Virus record (IMG/VR): IMGVR_UViG_3300050011_000062
Coordinates: 1-24,939 of that record
Length of the DNA: 24,939 nt
Direction: 5' to 3' (one strand)
Origin: a virus
In this document: positions 778-23,684 of the stretch, piece by piece
Position numbering within the stretch: the first letter of the stretch is position 1
Layout: each line of letters begins with the position of its first letter
Notes under the pieces: generated by a model
Seen by the model: the letters and a program-made list of their open reading frames with translations, nothing else
Databases searched by the model: none
Told to the model about the DNA's origin: nothing
Translations under genes and position numbers: made by a program

Positions 778-974
778 TGAGAGTATTGCGCCAGTAAAAT
801 CTTCTCTGATTGACTTGAACCCTGAAATGGCAACAAGGGCGAAGCCGTAAGGCACGCTGAGAGACTAAGTGAGAAGACACTCTTCGAGTGATGCGATAGT
901 CCGACCATACGGGAATTGAACCGTATGAGGTAGACAGAAATGTTCTACCCTGTATGATTGATACAGTAACATCG
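778..974 (+). ncRNA. ORF-less group I intron in the portal gene
   Basis: This 197-nt insert has the parts of a self-splicing group I intron. P1 pairs exon 772-777 with 788-793. P3 pairs CTTCTC 801-806 with GAGAAG 871-876. P7 pairs GACTA 863-867 with TAGTC 897-901 in the context GCGATAGTCC. P8 is CACTC/GAGTG (878-882 with 886-890). P9 is CATACGG/CCGTATG (906-912 with 921-927). A further hairpin, GGTAGA/TCTACC (929-934 with 944-949), carries the loop CAGAAATGT. The intron ends in G at 974. It closely resembles the introns at 7709-7909 and 7956-8156 and encodes no protein. The pairing is read by eye; no covariance model was run. Confidence 0.88.
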
Positions 975-2906
975 GTGGATGCCGATCTTCTTTTTCAATC
1001 GCCGCGCCCTCTCAGCGTATATGAAAATACGTATGTCATGGAACCGAACGTACAACGGTTCACCGTCGCGAAAATCGTTAACGCGATCATTCCACAATTA
1101 TATAAGGGTCTTTTTTACGACGATCCGCCGATGCTTATGCGCCCGCGACCGGGAACTCCGCAAGCAATTGTAGACGCAAAACAAGCTCTCTTTTCTTACA
1201 TTCTCGACGAATGTAATTTCAAACAACAGACGAAGTGGGGCATGGAAACAATGGCCACTTTCGGGACTGGTATTTGGAAGTGGGGAATTGATTGGAAAGA
1301 TATCACGACTTGGAAGCGAAAAGCATCTGTCGTCAGCGTTGAAGTCGGCCCGGATCAAGCGACACAGAGTTCAGTAGTCGTTACGAATGAAGCGCCGAAA
1401 GTCACGCCGACTATAACAACGATGCGACTTCCGTTTTTTGAGCACAGACCGCTAGATAAAGTCCTTGTCGATCCACATCTTGAAGTCAGCGATATTCGTA
1501 AAGCTGATTGGGTTGTAGATGTTCATTACATGGACTTTTATCAACTCGAAGAGATTCGCCAAGCGATTGAAGATTCTACAGACAAGACCGCTACTGAAGG
1601 GTGGTCAATTCCGAAGAATCTTCGCGATACGTGGATCAAGACTACGAGTACAGTCACAAATCTTCAACAAGAACAAAATATTTACGCAACTGGCGCGGTT
1701 CATCATTCGAAAGACATGCCAATTCAGGCCGGACCCGATCCGCTGCGCAAGAAATTAGAAGTTCTGGAATATTGGGATAAGAAACGAAAGATCATCGTCA
1801 TTAACGGCGAGACTGTACTTTATACAGGTACAAACGAATTTGACCAACTTCCATTTTTGTCATGCAATTGGTGGAGTCGGCCAAAAGCGTTCTTCGGAAT
1901 GGGACTTGGGTTAGTCATCGGCCAGAATCAACGCGTCGATCAAGGCGCGATTAATGCCATATTAAAGATTCTGTCTTTTGGCGTTAATCCGATTTATCTC
2001 CAGAAACGCGAAGCGAATACCGCGACACAAATGATCCGAACCGGACTCGGCAAGATTATGAAAGTCGATGGACCTGCTGATGAAGCATTCCATCTTCTTG
2101 AACAGCCGAAAGTTCCGTCTGATGTTTGGTCCGCGTTAAAAGAATCACAAGATAGTTCAGAATCCGCTTCGGGGGCCGATCAACAACTCGTTCAGGGTTC
2201 TACTGCTGGTCCTCGGTCTGGTATGGGTCGAACATCGGGCGGCGCTGCAATTCAGGCATCAGCGTCTGCAACTCGATTAGACGGCCCGCTAGACAATTTT
2301 ATTGAACAAGTATTCAAGCCGTTTCTGTCTATTCTTGACATGTTAGTTTTTCGATTTATGCACGACGAATGGATTTTGCACATTCTTGGTGAATTACTCG
2401 GTAGAAAGTTGACTCAGGCTTTTCCGATGCAAGATTATTGGGATTCAAATATTGAATTCGAAATTCTTGCAGGCGCGTCGATGTCGGCTCGTCGAACGAT
2501 GGCGCAATCGATGGTCATGTTGACACAGATTTTTGACAATCCGCAAATTGGCGAACAGTTAGCCGATATCAACGAAGAATATATCGACTATGATGCGATT
2601 CTTCGAATGTGGATGGAAGCTTCGGAATGGAAGAACAATGCCGATATCATTAAAAAAATGACTCCGCAGATGATTGCAAAGCGCCAAGCACAATCGAAAG
2701 CCGCGCAAATGCAAGCACAAGTCCAAGCGAAGCAGCAAGACTCTGTCCAGAAGTTCCAGCAAAAGAGTGATCTTGCCGATCAATCGAGCAACAATCGAAT
2801 CAAAGAAGATTTGGTTGTTGCAGCCGCGAAGGGTTCCGGATTGGATGAAACCACTCTTGGCGAACCAAGCGCCATCGGACTTCAGGGTCAAACTCCTTCG
2901 GTGTAG
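975..2906 (+). CDS. Portal protein, exon 2 (main body)
   Basis: This is the body of a large portal-like protein, the dodecameric ring at the capsid vertex through which DNA passes. An ATG at 954 opens the same frame but lies inside the intron, so the spliced product should start at 577. Visible features are the region ENTYVMEPNVQRFTVAKIVN, a middle section with FFGMGLGLVIGQNQRVDQGA, and a Gly/Ser/Ala-rich stretch (QGSTAGPRSGMGRTSGGAA) followed by the LDNFIEQVFKPFL helix. The C-terminus is rich in Gln, Ala and Lys and likely forms a coiled coil. The architecture and the position after the terminase support the portal call. The spliced length of 710 residues suits the larger podovirus-type portals. 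The family was judged from pattern only. Confidence 0.75.
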   Translation: MDADLLFQSPRPLSVYENTYVMEPNVQRFTVAKIVNAIIPQLYKGLFYDDPPMLMRPRPGTPQAIVDAKQALFSYILDECNFKQQTKWGMETMATFGTGIWKWGIDWKDITTWKRKASVVSVEVGPDQATQSSVVVTNEAPKVTPTITTMRLPFFEHRPLDKVLVDPHLEVSDIRKADWVVDVHYMDFYQLEEIRQAIEDSTDKTATEGWSIPKNLRDTWIKTTSTVTNLQQEQNIYATGAVHHSKDMPIQAGPDPLRKKLEVLEYWDKKRKIIVINGETVLYTGTNEFDQLPFLSCNWWSRPKAFFGMGLGLVIGQNQRVDQGAINAILKILSFGVNPIYLQKREANTATQMIRTGLGKIMKVDGPADEAFHLLEQPKVPSDVWSALKESQDSSESASGADQQLVQGSTAGPRSGMGRTSGGAAIQASASATRLDGPLDNFIEQVFKPFLSILDMLVFRFMHDEWILHILGELLGRKLTQAFPMQDYWDSNIEFEILAGASMSARRTMAQSMVMLTQIFDNPQIGEQLADINEEYIDYDAILRMWMEASEWKNNADIIKKMTPQMIAKRQAQSKAAQMQAQVQAKQQDSVQKFQQKSDLADQSSNNRIKEDLVVAAAKGSGLDETTLGEPSAIGLQGQTPSV

Positions 2907-2979: not shown

Positions 2980-3007
2980 AATTTATTCTGGCCCGAAGCA
3001 GGAGATG

Positions 3008-3985
3008 ATGAAAGTTCTGTTCGTATTAAAGAAAAGCGGATACGGTTGCAATTATAACTATGGAACAAGCGGATTGTTAAATTCTTCGAAGTTCATCGTT
3101 GATATGTTAAATAAGAACAGCGTGGACGCGAAGTTGGTAGTTGTGAACGACAACAATAGTATCGACCGGGAAGTTTTTAACTTCCGGCCTGATACAGTTG
3201 TAATCGAAGCACTTTGGGTCGTGCCCGAGAAATTTGACGTATTGAAGAATTTACACCCAAACGTCAAATGGGTTGTACGTATACACAGCGATTTACCGTT
3301 TCTCGCGTCTGATTCAATCGCAATGTCTTGGACGTTCGAGTACTTAAAACGCGGAGTATTCGTTGCATTTAACGATAAACGGACGTTTGAAAGTATTAAA
3401 GATATCTCATCGGAAGATGGCGTGTTATATCTTCCGAATTTTTATCCGGTCGAAAGTCGGCATCGTAAAGAAAGTTTTGAGTTAAATATTGGTTGTTTCG
3501 GGGCAATTAGGCCGTTGAAGAATCAACTGATCCAAGCAGTCGCCGCAATACAATATGCTGATTCGGTCAACCGACAGTTAAATTTTTATGTCAACGGAAC
3601 TCGTTGTGAAGATGGCGGCGAACGCGTTCTTAAGAATCTTCGGGCGCTGTTTGAAAACACCGGGCACAACCTGATCGAAATAACTTGGCTTGACAGAGAT
3701 GAATTTCTAGAGATTATGTCGAAGATGAGTTTGGCGATGTGTGTCTCTTTTACAGAGACATTTTGTATCGTCGCCGCAGACGCGGTTACAGTCGGAACGC
3801 CATTGATCTGTTCTTCGCAAGTACCTTGGACAGTCAAGTCTTCTGTTGTTTCGACAACAAACGTCGATGAGATTGCTAAACGAATTGGAGAGTTGATCGG
3901 ATCAGAGACGAACGCCGAAGATAATCGTATGCATTTAAGAGGATATTCAAGACACAGCGAAGAGATTTGGTTAAACACTTTATAA
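3008..3985 (+). CDS. GT-B-fold glycosyltransferase
   Basis: The 325-residue product resembles family 1/4 GT-B glycosyltransferases, which move a sugar from a nucleotide donor to an acceptor. The N-terminal half begins MKVLFVLKKSGYG, a beta strand and glycine-rich turn. The second domain opens with IGCFGAIRPLKNQ (about residues 161-173). The donor-site region is SFTETFCIVAADAVTVGTPL (247-266), where E250 and the G-T-P turn match the usual E...G.P pattern. ATG codons occur at 3005 and 3008; AGGAG ends at 3004, so 3008 is the more plausible start. It lies alone between hairpins on both sides, like a cargo gene. It might modify virion proteins or host surface sugars; neither acceptor nor donor can be inferred. 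Confidence 0.75.
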   Translation: MKVLFVLKKSGYGCNYNYGTSGLLNSSKFIVDMLNKNSVDAKLVVVNDNNSIDREVFNFRPDTVVIEALWVVPEKFDVLKNLHPNVKWVVRIHSDLPFLASDSIAMSWTFEYLKRGVFVAFNDKRTFESIKDISSEDGVLYLPNFYPVESRHRKESFELNIGCFGAIRPLKNQLIQAVAAIQYADSVNRQLNFYVNGTRCEDGGERVLKNLRALFENTGHNLIEITWLDRDEFLEIMSKMSLAMCVSFTETFCIVAADAVTVGTPLICSSQVPWTVKSSVVSTTNVDEIAKRIGELIGSETNAEDNRMHLRGYSRHSEEIWLNTL

Positions 3986-5792: not shown

Positions 5793-6429
5793 ATGTCATT
5801 TTCACCCTCGGGGAATCAACTCTCTAACCTCCCGCAATCTACTGTTAAGTTTTACGACAAAAAGTTCCGGGAAAATTTAAAGGCTCAGACGCCATTCGTG
5901 GCCTGCGCCGAACGTCTCAATCTGCCAACCAATAGTGGTAACCAGTACGAGATGTTTATGTACGTGCCTTTAGCTGCAAACACTAATCAGACTACCGAAG
6001 GAACTGTCGGTTCGTCTCTGAGTGTTAGCGTGCTAACTACCACGGCCACAATCGGTGAATATGCCGATTACGCCAATTTCAGTTCGCTAAGTCTTGCGAC
6101 TGCGATTGACAATACCGTAGAGAACGTCGCGAAGGAAATGAGTTATCGCCTTGGCGAAAGTCTGTCCGCTCTCGTCCGTGCAACTTGCGACGGCGCGAAC
6201 AGCATCGATTCTAGCGTGCTGACTCAGTTGGCCGCGACTTCGACTTCGAGCTTTACTGCTCTGTCGTTGTCCCAGATTCGAAATAGCGTCCAGTCACTTG
6301 CTGGCCGCAGCGTTCGTCCTTTTGACGAAGCGAGTAAGAGTTTCATCGGAGTAATTCATCCCTTCGCCCTTGGCGATGTTTTGGCTGATAACTCCAACGA
6401 TTCGCCTATCGACATCCTGAAGCACACTT
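5793..6429 (+). CDS. Major capsid protein, exon 1 (about 212 residues)
   Basis: This is the 5' part of an MCP gene in four exons. ATG 5793 lies 13 bases after the scaffold stop. The coded part contains NQYEMFMYVPLAANTNQTTEG, a long spine-helix-like region, and SKSFIGVIHPFALGDVLADN, a region typical of phage capsid proteins of the HK97-fold class. The unspliced frame runs into the intron and stops at 6450-6452. The exon end CACACT(T) pairs with GGGTGTG at 6441-6447, giving a P1 helix with U-G pairs at the splice site. The boundary may be 6428, 6429 or 6430; 6429 joined to 7348 gives the most natural protein, ILKHT|LGQAKMDELV. MCP subunits form the icosahedral shell. Confidence 0.75.
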
Positions 6430-7347
6430 TAATTCTATTGGGGTGTGTATAAACTTAACTATATCGGGGAACATCAAGATTTCTCTTGACAATCCCGAGA
6501 TAACTTCTTATAATTAAGGAACATATGAAAGACCATTCTATAGCGTATATGGCGGGTCTGATTGACACAGATGGAACTCTTGGTATTTATTACAAGGGCG
6601 AGTCTGGATATCAGGCAAGTTTAGAGTTTTACAATGATGATGTGCAACTCATGAAATGGGTTGTTGAACACTTTGGCGGGCAGTTTAAACCAAAGAAAGA
6701 CCCAAGACGCGAGACTATCGGCTATCGATGGACTCCGCAAGGGCGACTTCATCTGTGTAGAATTCTTGATACATTAATTCCTTTCCTTGTCTTAAAGAAA
6801 TCTGAAGCAGTAATAGTTCGTCAATTTTTGAGTATATCGGGAGAAGCCCCGGACTTACGAAAGTATCTGGCGAACACTTGCAGATTCATTAAAGGCAAAA
6901 GAAGCATCGTAGAGACTGATACGTTAAGAAGTCTCTTAACAAGAAAACCAAACTTAATTCAAGCATACGTTGCAGGACTTATAGACGGCGATGGAAACAT
7001 CGACACTTATGAGTCTAGCGTTGTGATTGGGTTTACAAATATGTGCTATTCGCTTATAGATGAGTTAGTTACGCTCTATGGCGGCGGATGGTATCAATGT
7101 AAGCCGACAACACGACGATGGCAACTTAGCGGAATGAAATTTCAAGAAGCGTTTTTATTGAAGATTATTCCTTATCTTGAACTTAAGAAACAGAGAGCAA
7201 AGGATGCTCTTGAGTTTGTACGGAGTAGAATTAATACTCCGAGGCAATTTGGCAGACCTTGTAAAGAACTTATGATACAGTCCGATCTCATGGGCGACCA
7301 TGAGTGTGATTCTAACGGAAGTTAGAAATCCTAAACAATAATACCAG
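6430..7347 (+). ncRNA. Group I intron carrying a LAGLIDADG endonuclease gene
   Basis: About 918 nt interrupt the MCP gene. P1 pairs exon 6423-6429 with 6441-6447. P4/P5-like arms are visible as CGGG/CCCG (6465-6468 with 6494-6497) around TCAAG/CTTGA (6474-6478 with 6485-6489). At the 3' end, GATACAGTCC (7274-7283) looks like the S strand of P7. It is followed by a perfect hairpin CTCATGG-GCGA-CCATGAG (7287-7304), a P9 with a GNRA loop, and by TCTAAC-GGAA-GTTAGA (7311-7326). I could not place the partner strand of P7 or P3, so the core is incompletely resolved. It is not obviously related to the three small introns. The 3' end could also be 7351 or 7355. Confidence 0.75.
6525..7325 (+). CDS. 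LAGLIDADG homing endonuclease, intron-encoded
   Basis: This 266-residue protein has two dodecapeptide motifs, MAGLIDTDG (residues 9-17) and VAGLIDGDG (149-157), so it is a single-chain, two-repeat enzyme. The acidic residues D16 and D156 at the motif ends would bind the metal ions that cut DNA. Such enzymes cleave the intronless allele at the insertion site and so spread the intron by repair. Some also help the intron fold (maturase activity), which cannot be judged here. AAGGA lies about six bases before the ATG. The C-terminal codons (ELMIQSDLMGDHECDSNGS) overlap the P7/P9 hairpins of the intron, a compact arrangement that constrains both RNA and protein. Confidence 0.92.
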   Translation: MKDHSIAYMAGLIDTDGTLGIYYKGESGYQASLEFYNDDVQLMKWVVEHFGGQFKPKKDPRRETIGYRWTPQGRLHLCRILDTLIPFLVLKKSEAVIVRQFLSISGEAPDLRKYLANTCRFIKGKRSIVETDTLRSLLTRKPNLIQAYVAGLIDGDGNIDTYESSVVIGFTNMCYSLIDELVTLYGGGWYQCKPTTRRWQLSGMKFQEAFLLKIIPYLELKKQRAKDALEFVRSRINTPRQFGRPCKELMIQSDLMGDHECDSNGS

Positions 7348-7708
7348 TAGGACAGGCAAAGATGGACGAACTCGTAAGTGTTGATCTGACTGAAGTAATC
7401 GAACTGCCGAGTTCTGGCGTTCAGTTCTTCCAGACCAACCTCGTCACTCAGTCCAACAACTATAAGTCAGTTGCCGGACTAGTCGGTCTTCGAACTTATA
7501 TCTTCGGGCGCGATGGAGTTTTTGCCATCAATCTCGGAGCTAAGGGCGATACCGGATACGGTGACGGCGAATGGCGAAATATTGAGTGCAACATTATGCA
7601 GAACGTTGCACCCACGGTCGCTGATCCTAACCCCTTTGGGATCAAGAAGATACAGCAGATCATTTAGTTTTTGGAAGGGCTGATCCCCGGCTGGACTTCT
7701 TACAGAGT
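7348..7708 (+). CDS. Major capsid protein, exon 2, containing an in-frame TAG
   Basis: This exon encodes the central and C-terminal MCP parts: MDELVSVDLTEVIELP, VQFFQTNLVTQSNNY, LRTYIFGRDGVFAINLG and GDGEWRNIECNIMQN. The ATG at 7362 is internal, not a start. The frame meets TAG at 7665-7667, yet the same frame continues after it with LIPGWTSYRV, a typical MCP C-terminal segment, up to the splice site at 7708. The exon end ACAGAGT (7702-7708) pairs with GCTCTGT (7721-7727), with a U-G pair at the junction. Splicing to 7910 completes the GTA codon and gives YRVHFTTSLGPDTT. The stop lies in a 39-nt insertion described separately. Confidence 0.75.
7641..7679 (+). other. 39-nt in-frame insertion with stop, candidate translational bypass element
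   Basis: The stretch lies between two identical GGG codons, 7638-7640 and 7677-7679, in the same frame, and contains TAG at 7665-7667. If ribosomes left the first GGG and resumed after the second, the protein would read ADPNPFG|LIPGWTSYRV with no stop, as in the T4 gene 60 bypass between matching GGA codons. GGGATCA (7638-7644) can pair with TGATCCC (7681-7687), bringing the take-off and landing codons together. Alternatives are stop readthrough (adding about 13 residues), a truncated MCP, or a sequence error. Confidence 0.4.
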
Positions 7709-9066: not shown

Positions 9067-10302
9067 ATGCCTTATCCCGCACAAACAACGGGTCTTGGTG
9101 TCGCTGTTGCTGTTTCGTTGGCCGGAACGGGCGTTGTACAGGAGAAGACGCCTGTCGTTGGAACACAAGGAATCTCGCACTATAATGTCACTCTGTCTCT
9201 CTCTGGCGCGCATGGGCCGAGTACGGTCGCTGTCTCCGCTTCGACTATTGATGTCGCCGGAAACGTCGTCTCAAATGGCGGCGCTTCAGGGACTTCACAG
9301 CTTGGAACAGCCGCTGCGAATTATGCGATTCTTGCCGCTGCTGGAATTACGAATACAGGCGCGACACTGATTACAGGTGGAAATATCGGTTCTTATCCGA
9401 CCGCGACTGAAACCGGATTTACCGGGGCGAATTTTGTTCCTCCGGCGACGACTGATAACGCCGACGCACAAGCGGGATTAGCTGCGGCTCTAGTGACGTA
9501 TAACGCTTTAGCGGCTTTGACTTTCACTTCTCTATCCGGATCGTCTGCCAATCTTTCCACTCTCGGTAACGGCGCGACTGCCGCGACTTATCTTCCCGGT
9601 AATTATTCTGCCGGAAGTTCGATGGACATTCCGACGAGTATTACTCTTGATGCTCAAGGAAATGCCAATGCAGTTTTTATTTTCAAGGCCGGATCGACTG
9701 TAACGCTTGAATCGAATGCGTCTGTTCTTCTCGTCAATGGCGCTCAAGCCGCAAATGTTTACTGGCTTGTCGGCAGTTCGTTTACGTCAGTCTTCGGTTC
9801 TGTGTCCGTTATGCAAGGAAATATTCTTGCGAATACGAGTATTACTCTTGGCGGCGGCGTATTGAATGGCCGCGCCTTGGCCGGAATCGTGACTTCGTCC
9901 GGCGCAGTAACTATTGCGACCGCTGAAGCTATTACAGTTCCCGGATTTGCTCAAGGAACAGCTTCTGGCATGAGCGCAGTCAGCTATAACGCATGGCCGC
10001 GTAAAGTTGCTGGCGTTATCCAGAACAAAGACGGCGCTGCTCGTAATCAGCAAGATGTGACCGTTAGTTATCCCGCGCCCACTTCTGGTCCGGGCGGTGT
10101 TGCAGATGTCGTAGGAACGGGAAGTCCAGTTGGCAATCCGTTTACTGTTACATCTTATCGTGTTGGTCAAGCTTGGGTCGAGTTTTTTGCGCCCACTTTC
10201 GGGAATACCGAAGGTGTTGGCGACACGCACAGCGTTGATGAAGATTTCGACTTTCCTATCGACAAGATTCAGGCGCAGCTTCTCGTTAATGTTATTGCTT
10301 AA
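9067..10302 (+). CDS. Ig-like virion protein with an inserted DUF3494 (ice-binding type) domain
   Basis: The 411-residue protein starts two bases after the endonuclease stop and has only a weak ribosome binding site, so it is probably translationally coupled. Residues 1-75 (AVAVSLAGTGV, HYNVTLSLSGAHG, STIDVAGNV) and the C-terminal part (VTSYRVGQAWVEFFAPTF ... DFPIDKIQAQLLVNVIA) match the neighbouring protein at 10332. Residues about 78-295 are absent from that neighbour and look like a DUF3494 beta-solenoid: LGTAAANYAILAAAGITNTG, SSANLSTLGNGATAATYLPG, AVFIFKAGSTVTLESNASVL and NVYWLVGSSFTS. Some members of that family bind ice and others are adhesins. The location after the MCP suggests a capsid-decoration or fibre role. 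Confidence 0.72.
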   Translation: MPYPAQTTGLGVAVAVSLAGTGVVQEKTPVVGTQGISHYNVTLSLSGAHGPSTVAVSASTIDVAGNVVSNGGASGTSQLGTAAANYAILAAAGITNTGATLITGGNIGSYPTATETGFTGANFVPPATTDNADAQAGLAAALVTYNALAALTFTSLSGSSANLSTLGNGATAATYLPGNYSAGSSMDIPTSITLDAQGNANAVFIFKAGSTVTLESNASVLLVNGAQAANVYWLVGSSFTSVFGSVSVMQGNILANTSITLGGGVLNGRALAGIVTSSGAVTIATAEAITVPGFAQGTASGMSAVSYNAWPRKVAGVIQNKDGAARNQQDVTVSYPAPTSGPGGVADVVGTGSPVGNPFTVTSYRVGQAWVEFFAPTFGNTEGVGDTHSVDEDFDFPIDKIQAQLLVNVIA

Positions 10303-10331
10303 GTAGCGGTTATTCCGCAGAAAGAGTTTAT

Positions 10332-10856
10332 ATGGCTAATCCTTCCCCCGCTCATAACCCTACTGATGGTTTGGGTTCTGCGGTATATGTACAATTAAGT
10401 GGCACAAATGTTACTCCGTATCTCACACCATCTGCAAATCACCCTAATCCGGCGCACTATAATGTCACTTTGTCTTTGAGCGGTGCAGGCGGATTTGCAT
10501 CGTCTGTTGTAATTACTCCGTCACTCGTAGACGTGTCTGATGCAGCTTATGCTGCGACTGCCGCTTCTTGGGTCTATAATTCGTATAATAATCCACAAGT
10601 GACAGAAGCTAGTTTTCAGACTGGCCCGGGCAATCCGACTAATCTTGATCCGAAGCCGACACAGACCGCGAAACTCTGTTCTGTCAGTGCGTCGGGTGCT
10701 TCGACTGTTACTGTCACAGGACTTTCTTATGGTAAAGCCGTGATAGAAGTCGTGTATCCAACATTTGACGGGTCTGAAGGTTTTATTACTGCTGGCGGAA
10801 CGTCTTATCCTAAAGATAAGATTTTCGCGCTATTGGACGTAAAGATCGTAACGTAG
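10332..10856 (+). CDS. Ig-like virion protein, paralogue of the upstream gene
   Basis: The 174-residue protein shares its start (GLGSAVYVQLSGTNV, HYNVTLSLSGAGG, VDVSDAAY) and its end (VTVTGLSYGKAVIEVVYPTF, DKIFALLDVKIVT) with the gene at 9067, but lacks the DUF3494 segment. It is therefore the plain form of the same protein. The beta-rich sequence with a VTV.G..YG.A.IEV pattern suggests a bacterial Ig-like fold, common in phage decoration and tail proteins. AGAAAGAG precedes its ATG. A terminator hairpin follows the stop. Confidence 0.7.
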   Translation: MANPSPAHNPTDGLGSAVYVQLSGTNVTPYLTPSANHPNPAHYNVTLSLSGAGGFASSVVITPSLVDVSDAAYAATAASWVYNSYNNPQVTEASFQTGPGNPTNLDPKPTQTAKLCSVSASGASTVTVTGLSYGKAVIEVVYPTFDGSEGFITAGGTSYPKDKIFALLDVKIVT

Positions 10857-15589: not shown

Positions 15590-16183
15590 ATGGCGTTTCA
15601 GAAACAATTTCAATGCCAGAACGGGCATGAGCTATCTGCAAATAATCTTATATTAGAATTGCGTGATGGTAAAGAGCGGCGGCGCTGTAAAACTTGTCGT
15701 ACAGCACAAGTATTAGCCGATCAACAAAAAGCAAGAGATAAAACAGGCAGATTTCCGAAGAAGACGCACTGTAAGTATGGACATGCTTATGTCGAAGGAT
15801 CGTTCTCTGTTGTATATAGAAAGCCGCAAGACTATTCGTATCGATGCTGTTTGATTTGTCGTCGCGCTCAAGTGAAAAATGCGCATCAAAAACGTCGCTA
15901 TAATATAACAAATGAAGATCGCGCTGCGATGTTTATTGCGCAAGGTAGCCGTTGCGCGGTTTGTAAAGCGATAGTGCCTAATAGTAAACGAGGGTGGAGC
16001 ACTGATCATGATCATGCCTGTTGTCCCGGTAAGTCTTGCGGCAAATGTGTTAGAGGAATTTTGTGCTATAACTGTAACATAGCTCTTGGTCAAGTTGACG
16101 ACAATATAGATACTTTATACGCTTTGATTGAATATTTGAAAAGGACTAAGAATGGCGGCTATAAGCACGGTGACGATTTCTAA
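15590..16183 (+). CDS. HNH endonuclease, endonuclease VII type, with two Cys-rich N-terminal modules
   Basis: The 197-residue protein follows AGGAGAAAAG. Two similar zinc-site-like modules open it: CQNGH (C9) with C33xxC36, and CKYGH (C61) with C87xxC90. The nuclease domain has C122xxC125 (CAVCKA), TDHDH (138-142), an unusual extra Cys loop (CCPGKSCGKC, 144-153), then RGILCYNCNIALGQ (155-168). The extra Cys-rich insertion between the two halves of the active site may bind another zinc ion. The last ten codons overlap the start of the next gene (from 16152) in a different frame, so the two are coupled and the C-terminal tail KNGGYKHGDDF is largely written over adaptor codons. Confidence 0.85.
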   Translation: MAFQKQFQCQNGHELSANNLILELRDGKERRRCKTCRTAQVLADQQKARDKTGRFPKKTHCKYGHAYVEGSFSVVYRKPQDYSYRCCLICRRAQVKNAHQKRRYNITNEDRAAMFIAQGSRCAVCKAIVPNSKRGWSTDHDHACCPGKSCGKCVRGILCYNCNIALGQVDDNIDTLYALIEYLKRTKNGGYKHGDDF

Positions 16184-17123
16184 CACGATGGATTTTTGTA
16201 AGCGATTGAGTTTTAATCGTAACTTCGGAATCGGCAATTCTCTCGAACCCGCGCTTACAGCCGCAAATTTGACGGCCCAAATCATACTCTCTCCTCCGTT
16301 CGATTGGTGGTGGAATTCACAAGAGATTAGTTTTACGTGTTCGACTGTTTTTCCGACAGCGCCGATTACGAATGTCGCTTTGACTGCTAATATAGTCACT
16401 TTAGCGATGGTCAATACGTTTAATGTCAATGATCAGATTCTTATCTCTGGATTAACAGGTGCGGCGTTTTTGAATGGCGCGGTCCTGACAATTCTGACGA
16501 ATACAGGTACAAGTATAACCGCGTTCTTTAACGCGCCGAACTATACTTCGACCGCCGACTCTGGAACTGCGACAAAAGGCACGACACAAGACTATACGAT
16601 TAATATTCCTCAGTTTTCGCATATTGAACATGCGTCTGTATACGACATATTTACAAAGAACACATCGACAGGCGCGACAGGCCAGAAATGGTTTGAGTTG
16701 ACCGTTGAAGATAATCTGTCTCTCGACTCTACTCTTGCGCGGCCTCAGTTTATCAATCCTCAATTTGAAGATACGAGCGGGAATGTCACTTTTCGCGTTA
16801 TGCCCGCGCCGAGCAATAATTATCCAATCTCTATTCATTGCCAACTCGCCCCGCCACTGTTTACAAGTTTGAATCAAACATGGTCGCCCCTCCCCGACTT
16901 TATGCAGCATATTTATACTTGGGGGTTTATGTCGTTAATGTGGTTTTTCGCAGATGATCCTAGAGCCGCGTATGCCGGACAGAAATTTACTGCCGGACTT
17001 CTCGGTCGCGCAGAAGGATTGACTGAAGAAGACAGAAACATCTTCCTAAACAATTGGAACATGCTGACAGGACAACAACAGACGAAGTTCCAACAAGGAA
17101 CTCAAGCGCGGTCTTCACAGTAA
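16152..17123 (+). CDS. Adaptor/tail-tube-like virion protein, second paralogue
   Basis: ATG 16152 follows AAAAGGACTAAG within the end of the endonuclease gene. The 323-residue protein begins MAAISTVTISNTMDFCKRLS and has PPFDWWWNSQEISFTCS, the counterpart of PFNWKWNR in the gene at 14397. Residues about 75-150 form a small beta module (NVALTANIVTLAMVNTFN, FLNGAVLTILTNTGTSITAF) that recurs in the 1633-residue protein and looks inserted. The core continues QKWFELTVEDNLSLDSTLAR, FRVMPAPSNNYPISIHCQLA, WSPLPDFMQHIYTWGFMSLM and a C-terminal helix. It is probably an adaptor or tail-tube ring protein that follows the portal, with moderate support. Confidence 0.5.
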   Translation: MAAISTVTISNTMDFCKRLSFNRNFGIGNSLEPALTAANLTAQIILSPPFDWWWNSQEISFTCSTVFPTAPITNVALTANIVTLAMVNTFNVNDQILISGLTGAAFLNGAVLTILTNTGTSITAFFNAPNYTSTADSGTATKGTTQDYTINIPQFSHIEHASVYDIFTKNTSTGATGQKWFELTVEDNLSLDSTLARPQFINPQFEDTSGNVTFRVMPAPSNNYPISIHCQLAPPLFTSLNQTWSPLPDFMQHIYTWGFMSLMWFFADDPRAAYAGQKFTAGLLGRAEGLTEEDRNIFLNNWNMLTGQQQTKFQQGTQARSSQ

Positions 17124-18782: not shown

Positions 18783-21700
18783 ATGTCGAATGCTTTACAA
18801 GCCGGGGGCGCACAGCCGGATAAACAAACCCGCTTTGCCCCTCTTTATACTGGCCGTTTCTTTTCGGGCATATGGACAAACCGATCTCCTTTACGTGACG
18901 CAGCTTCGACACGAATTGAAGAGAAATTTTACGGTCCTCGGGGTGATGCGCTAATCGCTGGATCGAACGTAGAGATTACGAATAGATTGACATTAGGCCG
19001 CAGACCCGGAAATCCGGTTTATGATAATGTCAATACTTTTACCGATGTTCTGAGTTTTGATGACTTTCGAATTAGTAAAGGCCTGTCCGATGTTTTCGGA
19101 ACAGTAACCGAACAAGTCGATACGATGATCGACACGAGTACGGCGCTTTATGCTGAGAATAGTGATTTCGTTCTCCAAGGCGGCGTTAATCCGACGACTG
19201 TATTTACTAAATCTCCCGGCGCGGGCCAAAGTTACGGCATTCAAGTTGGAAATGAATGGTACTTCGGAGACGGTGCAGATAATAAGAAATGGCTACAGTC
19301 TTTATTTGTCCGAACAAGCGCAAGCAATAACGCAACACTAAATCTCAATTCGTATCCATTTATGGATACGTTTTTAATCAGCAATCCGACTACGAATCCA
19401 CAGATTCAACAACTGATCGGTGCGGCTGTACAATCGGGTCCGTCTTCAGCAGTCAATAATATCAACGTCATAGATGTCGTTCTTTCAGATGAAATATTGA
19501 CTCTGACGACTTCTGCCGCGCCCTTTACGACACAACCTATTGGTACGCAGTTTATGCTATGGGGCTTTACTAATCCTGCAACGACATTTTTGAACGGATC
19601 GACGATCACTCTGACCGTTGCTTGGTCTGGGACGACGATTACCGCGAATTGGGGCGGAACGCACGAGAGTATGTCGCAAGCGGACACTGCTGTTATTCAA
19701 ATTGAAAGTGGCGGTACTAATTCTGTCACTAATACGCTCGTTTTAGGGCCAACTGTTCCAACTTGGGGAACAGTCGCGCCATCTGCTTCGAATGATTTTA
19801 TGGGCAGTGTTACGATTGATGGACAATCGATTTGGGTAAATCGTGGGATAACCGTTGAAAATTGGGGTTTAGCAGCGCCAACCGAAGACCTGATTTCCGG
19901 CGCAGGCGGCATTTCGCTTACGGGTGCGGCTTCAGGATTTTCGCCGAATACGTTTTATGCGCCTGCAAGTGTGTTTATTGATCCGAATGGAAATTTGTGG
20001 GAAGTTACAACTGGAGGAAAATCCGGTGCGACTGAACCCGCTTGGCCCGCGTCTCCGACGTTTAGCGTCAAACATGATATCTTTGCAGTCTCCGTTGCAG
20101 CTAACGTTGCTACTGTTTATTGCACGACTTTGCCGAGTCCGGGGCAGAGTGTAACTCTTTTCGGGCTGCAACAAGCGAACGGAACTGGTGGAGCACCTGA
20201 TCTTAACGGCGTGACGCTGACCGTTGCAACAACCGGAGCGAATTTCTTTACCGCGCCTTTTACGTTCTCGGGAAATTACCCGCTGACTGGCGACGGCGCT
20301 GATCAGGGATATGCGATATTTTACGGCACGACACAAGCAGATGGAAGTGTAATCTGGACGAGTCTGCAAAGTGCTGCTTCGATGGTTTGGACGGCGCACA
20401 CACATTATCATCAAGATGATTTTTTGGTCAACCCTGTCGGATCAAGTACGTCTTTATTCCAATTGAGTAAGAATACTCAGCCATTTATTCAATCGGACGG
20501 GGCTTTATATAGCGCCCTTTATCCGACGTATAATTCCAGTCCGACAGTCGGATCGTTTAATCCGATTGCAAATCCAATAACGATTAACGCGTGGGACGAT
20601 AATTCTAATCCCGCCCGAGGTTTCAATGGCGCATTTAGTCAATCGTTTACCGCAGTTCCGACATCTGGATCAGTCGCCGTTTCAACGCCTGTCCCGGGGT
20701 CTTTGTACGCTGTAACTAACTCGACTGCTGGCGGTGGACCCGAACAAAGCGGACCTGATGTCTATTTCTTTGCTATCAACGGCGCGGGCGAAATCGGCGC
20801 ATCAACAGACAGCGGGCAGCGCGAGAATTGGGAATCTTCGTTTATCTGTAAGATTTACATTCCTGCCCCCGGTACATATACATTTACGTTGTTACACGAC
20901 GATGGCGCGTTCTTTTCGTTCGACAATACGACTACGTCTGCTTATAAGACTAACGGTTCAGGAACTAACATTCCGCCGACTTTCTCCGGATCAGGCGGCA
21001 AGACCGCGATTCAAGGTTATACCGGAGTCGCGGGTAATAACAATTCAGGCGTAAATACCGATTCAGCAACTTGGGTCTTTCCGACAGCGGGCGATTATAC
21101 ATTAGAGATTAACTGGAAAGCTTGGGAAAATCAGCAAGAAATGATTTTTACCTGCCAGAGCTTTAATCTCGCCTCGAATCCTGATGAATCAGGATCAAAT
21201 CAACCCGCATGGCCCGCGTTTACGACTGCTGGCGCGACTGGTAATGTCACTACGGGCCGGATTACGTTCGGGACTGCCGATACTGTACTTGACGCGGGCG
21301 GTCAATATACGTGGAGTAATTTAGGGCCGAGTAGTGCTTACAAAATCTGGTATGCGAATACATTTTATACTGTCTCAGGAACGCCCGTTATTGACACGAA
21401 CGGAAATGAACAACTTCCGATTCAACCCGGCGTAACAGGTACGACCGCGCCGATCTTTAACGGTACATTGAATGGGATTACGACGTTGTCCGGATCGACG
21501 TTACAATTTATTAATTCCGGAAGTGTGCCTATTCAGCCGAATACTCTCGGAAAGATTACTGCGACGAGCGCTCAAGGCTGGGTTTACGGGATCGCTTTAG
21601 TCAACACACTTGATAACACAGTTTCGAATATCGGACCTGTTGGCCCGCCGAATAGCGCGGGCGGTGTGGGAACAGGACCGCTAATCAGCGGTCAAGTTAC

Positions 21701-23684
21701 GTTCTCCCCGGGCGCGGGACTTCCGTCTGATCTGACGCAAATTGACCCGCAAGCTGATTATGTCGCGATCTTTAGAACGACAGATGGTTTTTCGACTTTA
21801 CTTCTTATTCCGAGCAATGGGAATACTGATTATACTGTACCACTGACTCAATATATCCAGAGTGGTTATGTCGATATTACACCCGATACGGGATTAGATA
21901 CGCTTATCCAAGCTGCCGCAGCCGGAGAAAACACTCCTCCGCTTCCCGGCGCTGTCAATTTGACGTATCATCTTAACCGTATTTGGTACTCAATCGGCAA
22001 TACGGTTTACTATACAACAGGGCCTTTAGCTCCGGTCGGTAATGGAATTAACGGAACTTCGCCGTTAAATTTTGATCCAATGACTTCGACTGTCACTCGG
22101 TTATTTCCGACGAGTATCGGGTTAATCGTCTTTACGATTTCTGATATATATATAATCGCAAACTCGGGCGGAACTATTCTTCCGAGTCTCCCGTATGTTC
22201 CGGGCGTCGGCTTGTCGAGTTATAACGCGTTTGACTCATCCGGGCCATTGGCAGGTTTCTTTTCAACCGATCATCAGTTCATCAACTTCAATCCGAGCGC
22301 GGGCGTCAATATCGTTTCGATGCCTATTGGTGATCAATTCCGCAAAAATACCGGAGTCGCGCCGACAGCTTGGGACCCAAAGAATGTTTACGTCGCTTGG
22401 TACGTCAACGGCGAAGATATGGGCTGGTTTGTCGCAGACGGCGTTAACGGCTGGTTCAGGCTAATTAACAATCCCGCTCCTGATTTTGGTCAAAGCTGGA
22501 GTCCGTTTGCAACGATTGCTAACGGTGTGAAAGCTATTAAAGCGGTCGAAACTTCTCCGGGAGTGCATAATTTACTTCTAGGCCCAGCCGCGAATACTCC
22601 GGTCAATCCGTCACAATTAGGAGTTGCCGGAAATTATGCGCTACTCGCGTATTCCGGAATTACAAATACAGGATCGTCTGTCATTTCTGGCGGGAATGTT
22701 GGAACGGTTACCGCAACGGTAACTCCGGGTGCGTGGACGCTTGTTCCGCCATCAGTCATTGATAATGCAGATGCAGCAGCCGCTGAAGTTGCCGCAGTCA
22801 CAGCGTATAATTTTTATGCCGCAATGACTCCGACGAAATCAGGCCTATCTAATTTATCGGTAGGCGGAAACGGGAGTACAGCTTCGACTTATACAGCCGG
22901 AGTTTATGCCGGAGCGTCGAGTCTGTCGATGCCGACAGGAATCATTCTCGACGGCCAAGGCAATACGAATTCTATGTTCGTATTTCAAGCCGGATCGACT
23001 GTCAATCTTGCGTCCGGTCAATCGGTAACTTTGATTAATGGTGCTCAAGCAAGTAACGTATTCTGGGTTGTCGGCAGTTCTTTGACGACTGTCGCAACAT
23101 CAACGATGGTCGGAACGATTCTCGCGCAAGCGTCTGTCACTTTGGGCGGCGGCGTGTTTACAGGACGAGTGCTCGCAGGCATTAGCGGTTCGAGCGGGGC
23201 AGTAACTATTTCTGCCGCGACTACGATTACTGCTTCAAGCGGACTGCCGACAGGATCAGGGTTTATTCGATATCGTAATCTTGATGCGTCATCAGATGGT
23301 GGAACAGGATTGATGAACGGATTGACTTATCCTGCTTATGCCGTATTCGGGTCATACGTACTCGCGCAACCCGGTCAAGTTGCCGAAGTCATGTTTATCA
23401 CGACCGATTCGGTCAACGTTGGTAGTCCTTTGATCTTAGGACTTTTGATAGATGAGGCTTTACCGTATTATACTGGAAGTTTCGAAATGCTCAAAAACTG
23501 GGTTTCCGACCCTCCGGGCCTTCCACCAAGCAAATCGATTCTCGGACAGCGCTTTTATTTGGCTGAGACTGATCAACCTGCGGCTCTGCGACATCTACAG
23601 GTGATGTGCCAATGGCCGTCTGAGGCCGCTTTGAATGAACTTCAATCGTTTACAATCTATGGAGCTTTTGTCCAAGAAGCCTGA
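18783..23684 (+). CDS. Giant nozzle-like tail protein with PA14-like and DUF3494 insertions
   Basis: GGAGAACAGT precedes ATG 18783. The 1633-residue protein begins YTGRFFSGIWTNRSPLRDAA (about residues 22-41), with RRPGNPVYDN near 72-81. That opening resembles podovirus tail-nozzle proteins. Beta modules follow near 226-309 and 430-516; the second interrupts another module (NLWEVTTGGKSGATEPAWP ... DGSVIWTSLQ). A PA14-like domain spans about 638-796 (TYTFTLLHDDGAFFSFDN, GDYTLEINWKAWENQ). The presumed propeller core is about 930-1275 (LTYHLNRIWYSIGNTVYYTT, VAWYVNGEDMGWFVADGVNG). A DUF3494 domain occupies about 1276-1487 (LGVAGNYALLAYSGITNTG). The C-terminus resumes with YPAYAVFGSYVLAQPGQVAE. It probably forms the tail tip and binds cell-surface sugars. 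Confidence 0.62.
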   Translation: MSNALQAGGAQPDKQTRFAPLYTGRFFSGIWTNRSPLRDAASTRIEEKFYGPRGDALIAGSNVEITNRLTLGRRPGNPVYDNVNTFTDVLSFDDFRISKGLSDVFGTVTEQVDTMIDTSTALYAENSDFVLQGGVNPTTVFTKSPGAGQSYGIQVGNEWYFGDGADNKKWLQSLFVRTSASNNATLNLNSYPFMDTFLISNPTTNPQIQQLIGAAVQSGPSSAVNNINVIDVVLSDEILTLTTSAAPFTTQPIGTQFMLWGFTNPATTFLNGSTITLTVAWSGTTITANWGGTHESMSQADTAVIQIESGGTNSVTNTLVLGPTVPTWGTVAPSASNDFMGSVTIDGQSIWVNRGITVENWGLAAPTEDLISGAGGISLTGAASGFSPNTFYAPASVFIDPNGNLWEVTTGGKSGATEPAWPASPTFSVKHDIFAVSVAANVATVYCTTLPSPGQSVTLFGLQQANGTGGAPDLNGVTLTVATTGANFFTAPFTFSGNYPLTGDGADQGYAIFYGTTQADGSVIWTSLQSAASMVWTAHTHYHQDDFLVNPVGSSTSLFQLSKNTQPFIQSDGALYSALYPTYNSSPTVGSFNPIANPITINAWDDNSNPARGFNGAFSQSFTAVPTSGSVAVSTPVPGSLYAVTNSTAGGGPEQSGPDVYFFAINGAGEIGASTDSGQRENWESSFICKIYIPAPGTYTFTLLHDDGAFFSFDNTTTSAYKTNGSGTNIPPTFSGSGGKTAIQGYTGVAGNNNSGVNTDSATWVFPTAGDYTLEINWKAWENQQEMIFTCQSFNLASNPDESGSNQPAWPAFTTAGATGNVTTGRITFGTADTVLDAGGQYTWSNLGPSSAYKIWYANTFYTVSGTPVIDTNGNEQLPIQPGVTGTTAPIFNGTLNGITTLSGSTLQFINSGSVPIQPNTLGKITATSAQGWVYGIALVNTLDNTVSNIGPVGPPNSAGGVGTGPLISGQVTFSPGAGLPSDLTQIDPQADYVAIFRTTDGFSTLLLIPSNGNTDYTVPLTQYIQSGYVDITPDTGLDTLIQAAAAGENTPPLPGAVNLTYHLNRIWYSIGNTVYYTTGPLAPVGNGINGTSPLNFDPMTSTVTRLFPTSIGLIVFTISDIYIIANSGGTILPSLPYVPGVGLSSYNAFDSSGPLAGFFSTDHQFINFNPSAGVNIVSMPIGDQFRKNTGVAPTAWDPKNVYVAWYVNGEDMGWFVADGVNGWFRLINNPAPDFGQSWSPFATIANGVKAIKAVETSPGVHNLLLGPAANTPVNPSQLGVAGNYALLAYSGITNTGSSVISGGNVGTVTATVTPGAWTLVPPSVIDNADAAAAEVAAVTAYNFYAAMTPTKSGLSNLSVGGNGSTASTYTAGVYAGASSLSMPTGIILDGQGNTNSMFVFQAGSTVNLASGQSVTLINGAQASNVFWVVGSSLTTVATSTMVGTILAQASVTLGGGVFTGRVLAGISGSSGAVTISAATTITASSGLPTGSGFIRYRNLDASSDGGTGLMNGLTYPAYAVFGSYVLAQPGQVAEVMFITTDSVNVGSPLILGLLIDEALPYYTGSFEMLKNWVSDPPGLPPSKSILGQRFYLAETDQPAALRHLQVMCQWPSEAALNELQSFTIYGAFVQEA

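Follow-up and report, generated by a model that had tools for sequence, protein, structure and literature searches.

Cellular DUF3494 domains (PF11999, Ice_binding) are shuffled with Ig-like and adhesion domains in bacteria (PMC9957290), and the ice-binding sites of the family share no conserved motif (PMC7966756). In viruses, three PF11999 genes in contigs from the Arctic surface microlayer have been read as auxiliary genes for cryoprotection of the host (PMC11515562). Synechococcus phage S-SKS1 was named there as holding homologues (PMC11515562); a search of its record gave no PF11999 match. Among phage capsid proteins, T4 Hoc and the Ig-domain capsid adhesins have variable modules for which binding to environmental surfaces is known or proposed (PMC10385173, PMC11853027). 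No paper on DUF3494 as a virion component was found in the open library searched, although other literature may hold one.

The nearest isolate to the soil phage analysed here is Tunturiibacter phage Tunturi_3 (PP885686), a 97.6-kb podovirus from Finnish soil whose host is the acidobacterium Tunturiibacter psychrotolerans X5P2 (PMC11924767). The window, that is, the whole stretch of DNA analysed (24,939 bases), is the complete virus record. Its portal and adaptor proteins fall into SU10-type families (Pfam) and its capsid protein into phrog_1357 (PHROGs), and within INPHARED only Tunturi_3 has a similar portal.

954..2906, plus strand, portal protein of SU10 type (Pfam; 60% identical to the Tunturi_3 portal)
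5793..7667, plus strand, major capsid protein (MCP) in two pieces, 5793-6452 and 7362-7667, which flank a LAGLIDADG endonuclease ORF (6525-7325)
16152..17123, plus strand, adaptor protein of SU10 type (Pfam)

Gene order from portal to tail, including a protein in the scaffold position, is common to the window and Tunturi_3, with identities of 60% for the portal, 72-81% for the MCP, 40% for the adaptor and 38-53% for the tail protein. Hence, the window is a Tunturi_3-like podovirus of SU10 type, with homologous structural genes in the same order. Its host is probably also a member of the Acidobacteriota, judging from kinship to one isolate with a portal just 60% identical.

Further ORFs lie among these genes. 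The LAGLIDADG ORF interrupts the MCP gene of the window (5793-7667), and in relatives the gene is broken at other and more positions (L005 6898-8715, in several pieces; L010 6919-8401; L011 6809-8401), whereas it is continuous in L007 and Tunturi_3. An Rfam search of the window and L005 gave no hits, and thus no known intron family where the MCP gene is interrupted. Dispersed among the structural genes are five endonuclease VII-type ORFs (PF02945; 8297-9064, 12738-13187, 13804-14391, 15590-16183 and 23635-24288), the first just upstream of the 411-aa gene described below and the last beginning before the tail gene ends. A glycosyltransferase group 1 gene (3005-3985), with 76% conservation in L004 and L005, separates the portal gene from the gene in the scaffold position.

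Downstream of the capsid gene, a placement given by the split MCP pieces, are two tandem genes that the first-pass annotation had described as encoding Ig-like virion proteins of 411 and 174 residues with common N- and C-terminal parts, the first alone holding about 215 residues of DUF3494-like sequence.

9067..10302, plus strand, 411-aa platform protein (likely Ig-like N-part, residues 1-76; DUF3494 insert, 77-292; likely Ig-like C-part, 293-411)
9328..9918, plus strand, DUF3494 (PF11999, Ice_binding) copy 1, stop-free, 124.9 bits in the genome search
10332..10856, plus strand, 174-aa sibling platform protein without insert (ORF and flank homology)

Both ORFs are present as described, and the shared ends were borne out by local alignment of the 174-aa protein with the N-part (score 130 vs 31±6 for shuffled sequences) and the C-part (last ~119 residues; score 67 vs 31±5.5) of the 411-aa protein, neither score being reached in 500 shuffles. 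The insert spans residues ~77-292 (216 aa) and was identified by Pfam as PF11999 (residues 88-284, E 1e-34, profile positions 1-203 of 208), with 120.5 bits against a curated cut-off of 28.7 bits, while the Pfam search of the 174-aa protein gave no match. A phmmer search of the PDB with the 411-aa protein matched 5uyt (E 4e-28) and 6eio (1e-17). By reading, this protein lacks a signal-peptide-like start. The 411-, 174- and 1633-aa proteins (the last being the tail protein below) had no PHROGs match. A tblastn search of INPHARED with the full 411-aa protein and with two DUF3494 domains gave no match, and the sole match in a scan with the 174-aa protein was a contig near-identical to the window.

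The predicted fold agrees with the domain assignment, including the beta-solenoid with accompanying helix expected of DUF3494. For DUF3494 in the 411-aa protein, AF2 predicts a beta-solenoid with a long helix (residues 134-149) alongside, at a pLDDT of mostly 75-96. Every significant Foldseek match was a DUF3494 ice-binding protein (best 6eio, 4.1e-11), and VIA-align superposed the model on AnpIBP, an Antarctic fungal protein (7bwx), with Z 30.2 and an rmsd of 1.6 over 198 residues. The viral domains have fewer charged residues (3-5%) than the cellular set (8%), together with raised Thr and Ser, a composition that fits ice binding and equally any extracellular solenoid. Because DUF3494 has no conserved ice-binding motif (PMC7966756), sequence cannot decide the ligand.

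Tunturi_3 illustrates how the insert relates to its carrier. The gene directly after its major capsid gene encodes gp7, which shares with the 411-aa protein a homologous N-part (E 1e-4 by tblastn) and, by reading, a similar C-end. Two ~60-residue repeats occupy the loop that holds DUF3494 in the window. An iterated profile of the N-part, applied to loci gathered with the capsid protein, collected 66 distinct platform proteins with four states of this one loop: no insert (about 160-220 aa), one to three ~60-aa repeats, DUF3494, or repeats plus DUF3494 (L188, with two repeats and then DUF3494). DUF3494 occurs in the 411-type protein in 15 contigs, one near-identical to the window and most from separate samples. 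An uninserted sibling gene is present in 15 of the 16 loci with a DUF3494 platform and two platform genes in none of the 50 without (several loci are related or overlapping and some truncated), which suggests that platform gene duplication accompanied capture of the domain. In L004 (10001-12404), three platform genes are arranged in tandem, one with DUF3494 and two without. The Ig-like character of the platform is likely rather than proven, since Big_2 matches in the C-part of relatives were below the cut-off (E 0.005-0.02) and the modelled platform, with a pLDDT of 56-69 for the N-part and <50 over much of the C-part, matched phi29 capsid protein 8f2n_E (residues 344-439) at a VIA Z of 6.0, below the caution level of the tool.

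A second DUF3494 domain, overlooked in the first-pass annotation and about 57% identical to copy 1, is encoded in the tail gene.

18783..23684, plus strand, 1633-aa tail protein, homologue of Tunturi_3 gp19, carrying DUF3494 copy 2
20496..21179, plus strand, PA14-like (sugar-binding-type) region of the tail protein, by predicted fold
21945..22499, plus strand, region like a phage portal-tail complex chain (cyanophage A4, 9k09_U), by VIA fold match
22644..23219, plus strand, DUF3494 (PF11999) copy 2, residues 1288-1479, near the C-terminus

Copy 2 matched PF11999 with E 5e-32 (111.7 bits, profile positions 2-205 of 208; Pfam) and is inserted at LLLGP^PTGSG. This site is filled in four phages (the window, L073, L079 and L088), whereas 15 related loci, which encode 13 distinct proteins, lack the insert; among them are Tunturi_3 gp19 and L077, the closest relative with an empty site. 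In the distant podovirus-like contigs G007 and G010, DUF3494 is found in a protein related to the tail protein of the window. The tail model has a mean pLDDT of 55, with most of its DUF3494 part at 80-87, and that part aligned to DUF3494 proteins with Z 17.7-20. The protein is also modelled with a PA14 fold: at the moderate confidence of the model, this region matched PA14 structures of the Marinomonas primoryensis ice adhesin MpAFP (VIA Z 10.4-10.6) and yeast adhesin PA14 (Z about 10), and by sequence the PA14 chain 6qdi reached E 0.28. The resemblance to 9k09_U (Z 10.1, 160 residues, rmsd 4.7) comes from the same model with mean pLDDT 55, on which a podovirus tail nozzle beta-propeller is a tentative candidate fold.

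Synteny suggests that the 411-aa and tail proteins are probably virion components. The virion assignment in the first-pass annotation thus stands as far as gene position goes (a gene after the MCP in a cultured podovirus, and a second copy in a tail protein) and reaches beyond what sequence can show. Its description of DUF3494 as an unusual virion decoration needs qualifying, given 15 contigs of the group plus other phages.

To place the domains, a first tree of 78 DUF3494 domains was built. It grouped the podovirus platform and tail copies, G007, L006 and the 223-kb record G011 in a virus-only group (SH-aLRT 100), recovered again in a careful tree (support 100/100). Approximately unbiased (AU) tests on groups set by protein context rejected a single clade of all podovirus platform and tail copies (p-AU 0.0007) and a single clade of platform copies (p-AU 0.0024), these values being somewhat optimistic as the test was picked after the first tree. 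The rejections point to repeated movement of DUF3494 between phage proteins. Hence, the domain seems to have been acquired by podovirus proteins at least twice, out of a pool shared among phages and not by copying within one genome. Low dN/dS ratios of the domain in the platform (0.08-0.09) and in the tail protein (0.09-0.15), with synonymous sites near saturation in some segments, indicate that both copies are maintained by purifying selection. The best cellular matches, with 40-45% identity over most of the domain, lie outside the viral clade, and no cellular donor is named; the scan depends on exact 8-residue peptides and may have overlooked others.

Other viral records carry the domain in further contexts. 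L013/G011 (223,506 bases) encodes five DUF3494 proteins with six such domains in total, two of them in a single protein (loci 55312-55878, 99770-100336, 175447-175998 and 199139-202613). One of its DUF3494 proteins (2070 aa) has putative Ig domains, and one also matches tail-fibre PHROGs. Terminase PF03237 was not found in three of the other contigs, so for G011 the evidence of viral status is its place in IMG/VR together with matches to helicase and tail-fibre PHROGs. Viral contigs L018-L021 and L023-L025 carry DUF3494 in ~400-500-aa proteins with apparently fibronectin-like ends, on a tree branch separate from the clade of the window.

The identity of the domain, where it is inserted, the empty sites, the purifying selection on it and its repeated exchange among phages are directly supported. 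On this basis, the best reading as a whole is that DUF3494 serves as an exchangeable, surface-exposed adhesion module of the virion, to which we assign a rough probability of 0.68. An Ig-like platform protein, encoded after the MCP gene and probably head-associated in Tunturi_3-like podoviruses, offers one loop that accepts different modules, occupied in the window by a predicted DUF3494 beta-solenoid, and a second DUF3494 lies near the C-terminus of the tail protein, which also has the PA14-like region. The solenoids would most likely be displayed on the particle, at head and tail, and we infer that they act as multivalent adhesion modules holding virions on an ordered surface, for which ice in freezing soil, glycans of the host envelope or matrix, and mineral are candidates.

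Ice is the leading single candidate ligand, held tentatively and at less than even odds. True ice binding, in which the solenoids bind ice or inhibit recrystallisation and virions attach to ice-water interfaces or survive freeze-thaw near their hosts, has in its favour that solved ice-binding proteins are closest by both fold and sequence, that charge is low and Thr and Ser are raised, that the tail protein has DUF3494 together with a PA14-like region, much as MpAFP pairs PA14 with an ice-binding domain, and that the host of the nearest isolate is psychrotolerant and from Finnish soil (PMC11924767). However, fold and composition are no proof in a family without a conserved motif (PMC7966756), the tundra phage Tunturi_3 itself gave no PF11999 match in a profile search of its genome, and the group need not be cold-restricted, since Tunturi 3 and 4 show IMG/VR similarity to soils of Indiana, Colorado and Washington (PMC11924767). 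The stronger version, in which soil podovirus virions are decorated at head and tail with true ice-binding domains and concentrate at ice-water interfaces or in liquid veins, by means of a module mobile between unrelated phages, appears doubtful.

Adhesion to the host surface or matrix, with the solenoid as a receptor-scanning module that recognises envelope or extracellular-matrix glycans, is likewise a serious possibility short of even odds. It would suit the predicted PA14-like fold of sugar-binding type in the tail protein, the gain and loss of the domain between close relatives, which resembles swapping of receptor modules, and the G011 protein that matches tail-fibre PHROGs; the copies are, however, under purifying and not diversifying selection. 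We also know of no DUF3494 structure with a glycan ligand, which counts against this alternative. A ligand-free role, with a stable solenoid as passive stabiliser or spacer on capsid and tail, is quite improbable: unrelated repeats fit the same loop, so bulk or rigidity may count, but a filler would not need to be one and the same domain, captured repeatedly by proteins of unrelated context. An auxiliary role in cold protection of the infected host, in line with the published annotation of the three Arctic viral genes (PMC11515562), is very unlikely, as the domains occupy defined positions inside structural-type proteins, two per phage, and without a signal-peptide-like start. An assembly or annotation artefact, for which only the metagenomic origin speaks, was rejected because the architecture recurs in 15 contigs, mostly from separate samples and assemblies, with low dN/dS.

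The insertion of DUF3494 at defined positions of structural-type proteins speaks for a function of the virus particle itself, as in the virion adhesion module that we favour. DUF3494, its shuffling and viral PF11999 genes were already known; what appears to be new here is a probable modular phage adhesin platform that uses an ice-binding-type domain. If virions do adhere to ice or another ordered surface, this would bear on phage persistence and host encounter in frozen soils; with Tunturi_3 in culture, parts of the model are open to testing.

Compared with known systems, the phage domain resembles FfIBP (4nu2), SfIBP_1 (6bg8), AnpIBP (7bwx) and a Flavobacteriaceae ice-binding protein (5uyt) in profile and predicted solenoid-helix fold, and cellular DUF3494 proteins are likewise combined with Ig-like domains (PMC9957290). 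In contrast to the cellular proteins, the phage domains sit within a loop of a structural-type protein and form a separate virus-only clade, with ice as a candidate ligand. Tunturi_3 shares the gene order and has homologues of the platform (gp7) and tail (gp19) proteins but differs in carrying other repeats in gp7, a single platform copy, an empty gp19 site and no PF11999 match. The 66 platform proteins recall T4 Hoc in joining a conserved anchor to variable outward modules (PMC10385173), whereas their anchor is different, their module in the window is a solenoid and not an Ig domain, and their capsid position is suggested by gene order. Arctic viral PF11999 genes also place DUF3494 in viral sequence, although they were read as auxiliary genes (PMC11515562). 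The giant virus Hyperionvirus has a DUF3494 protein too (A0A3G5A745), 261 aa in length. The ice-binding domain of MpAFP is a Ca2+-dependent beta-helix and not a DUF3494 domain. This bacterial adhesin resembles the phage tail protein in uniting PA14 and an ice-binding-type domain in one large protein, and differs from it in the kind of ice-binding domain used.
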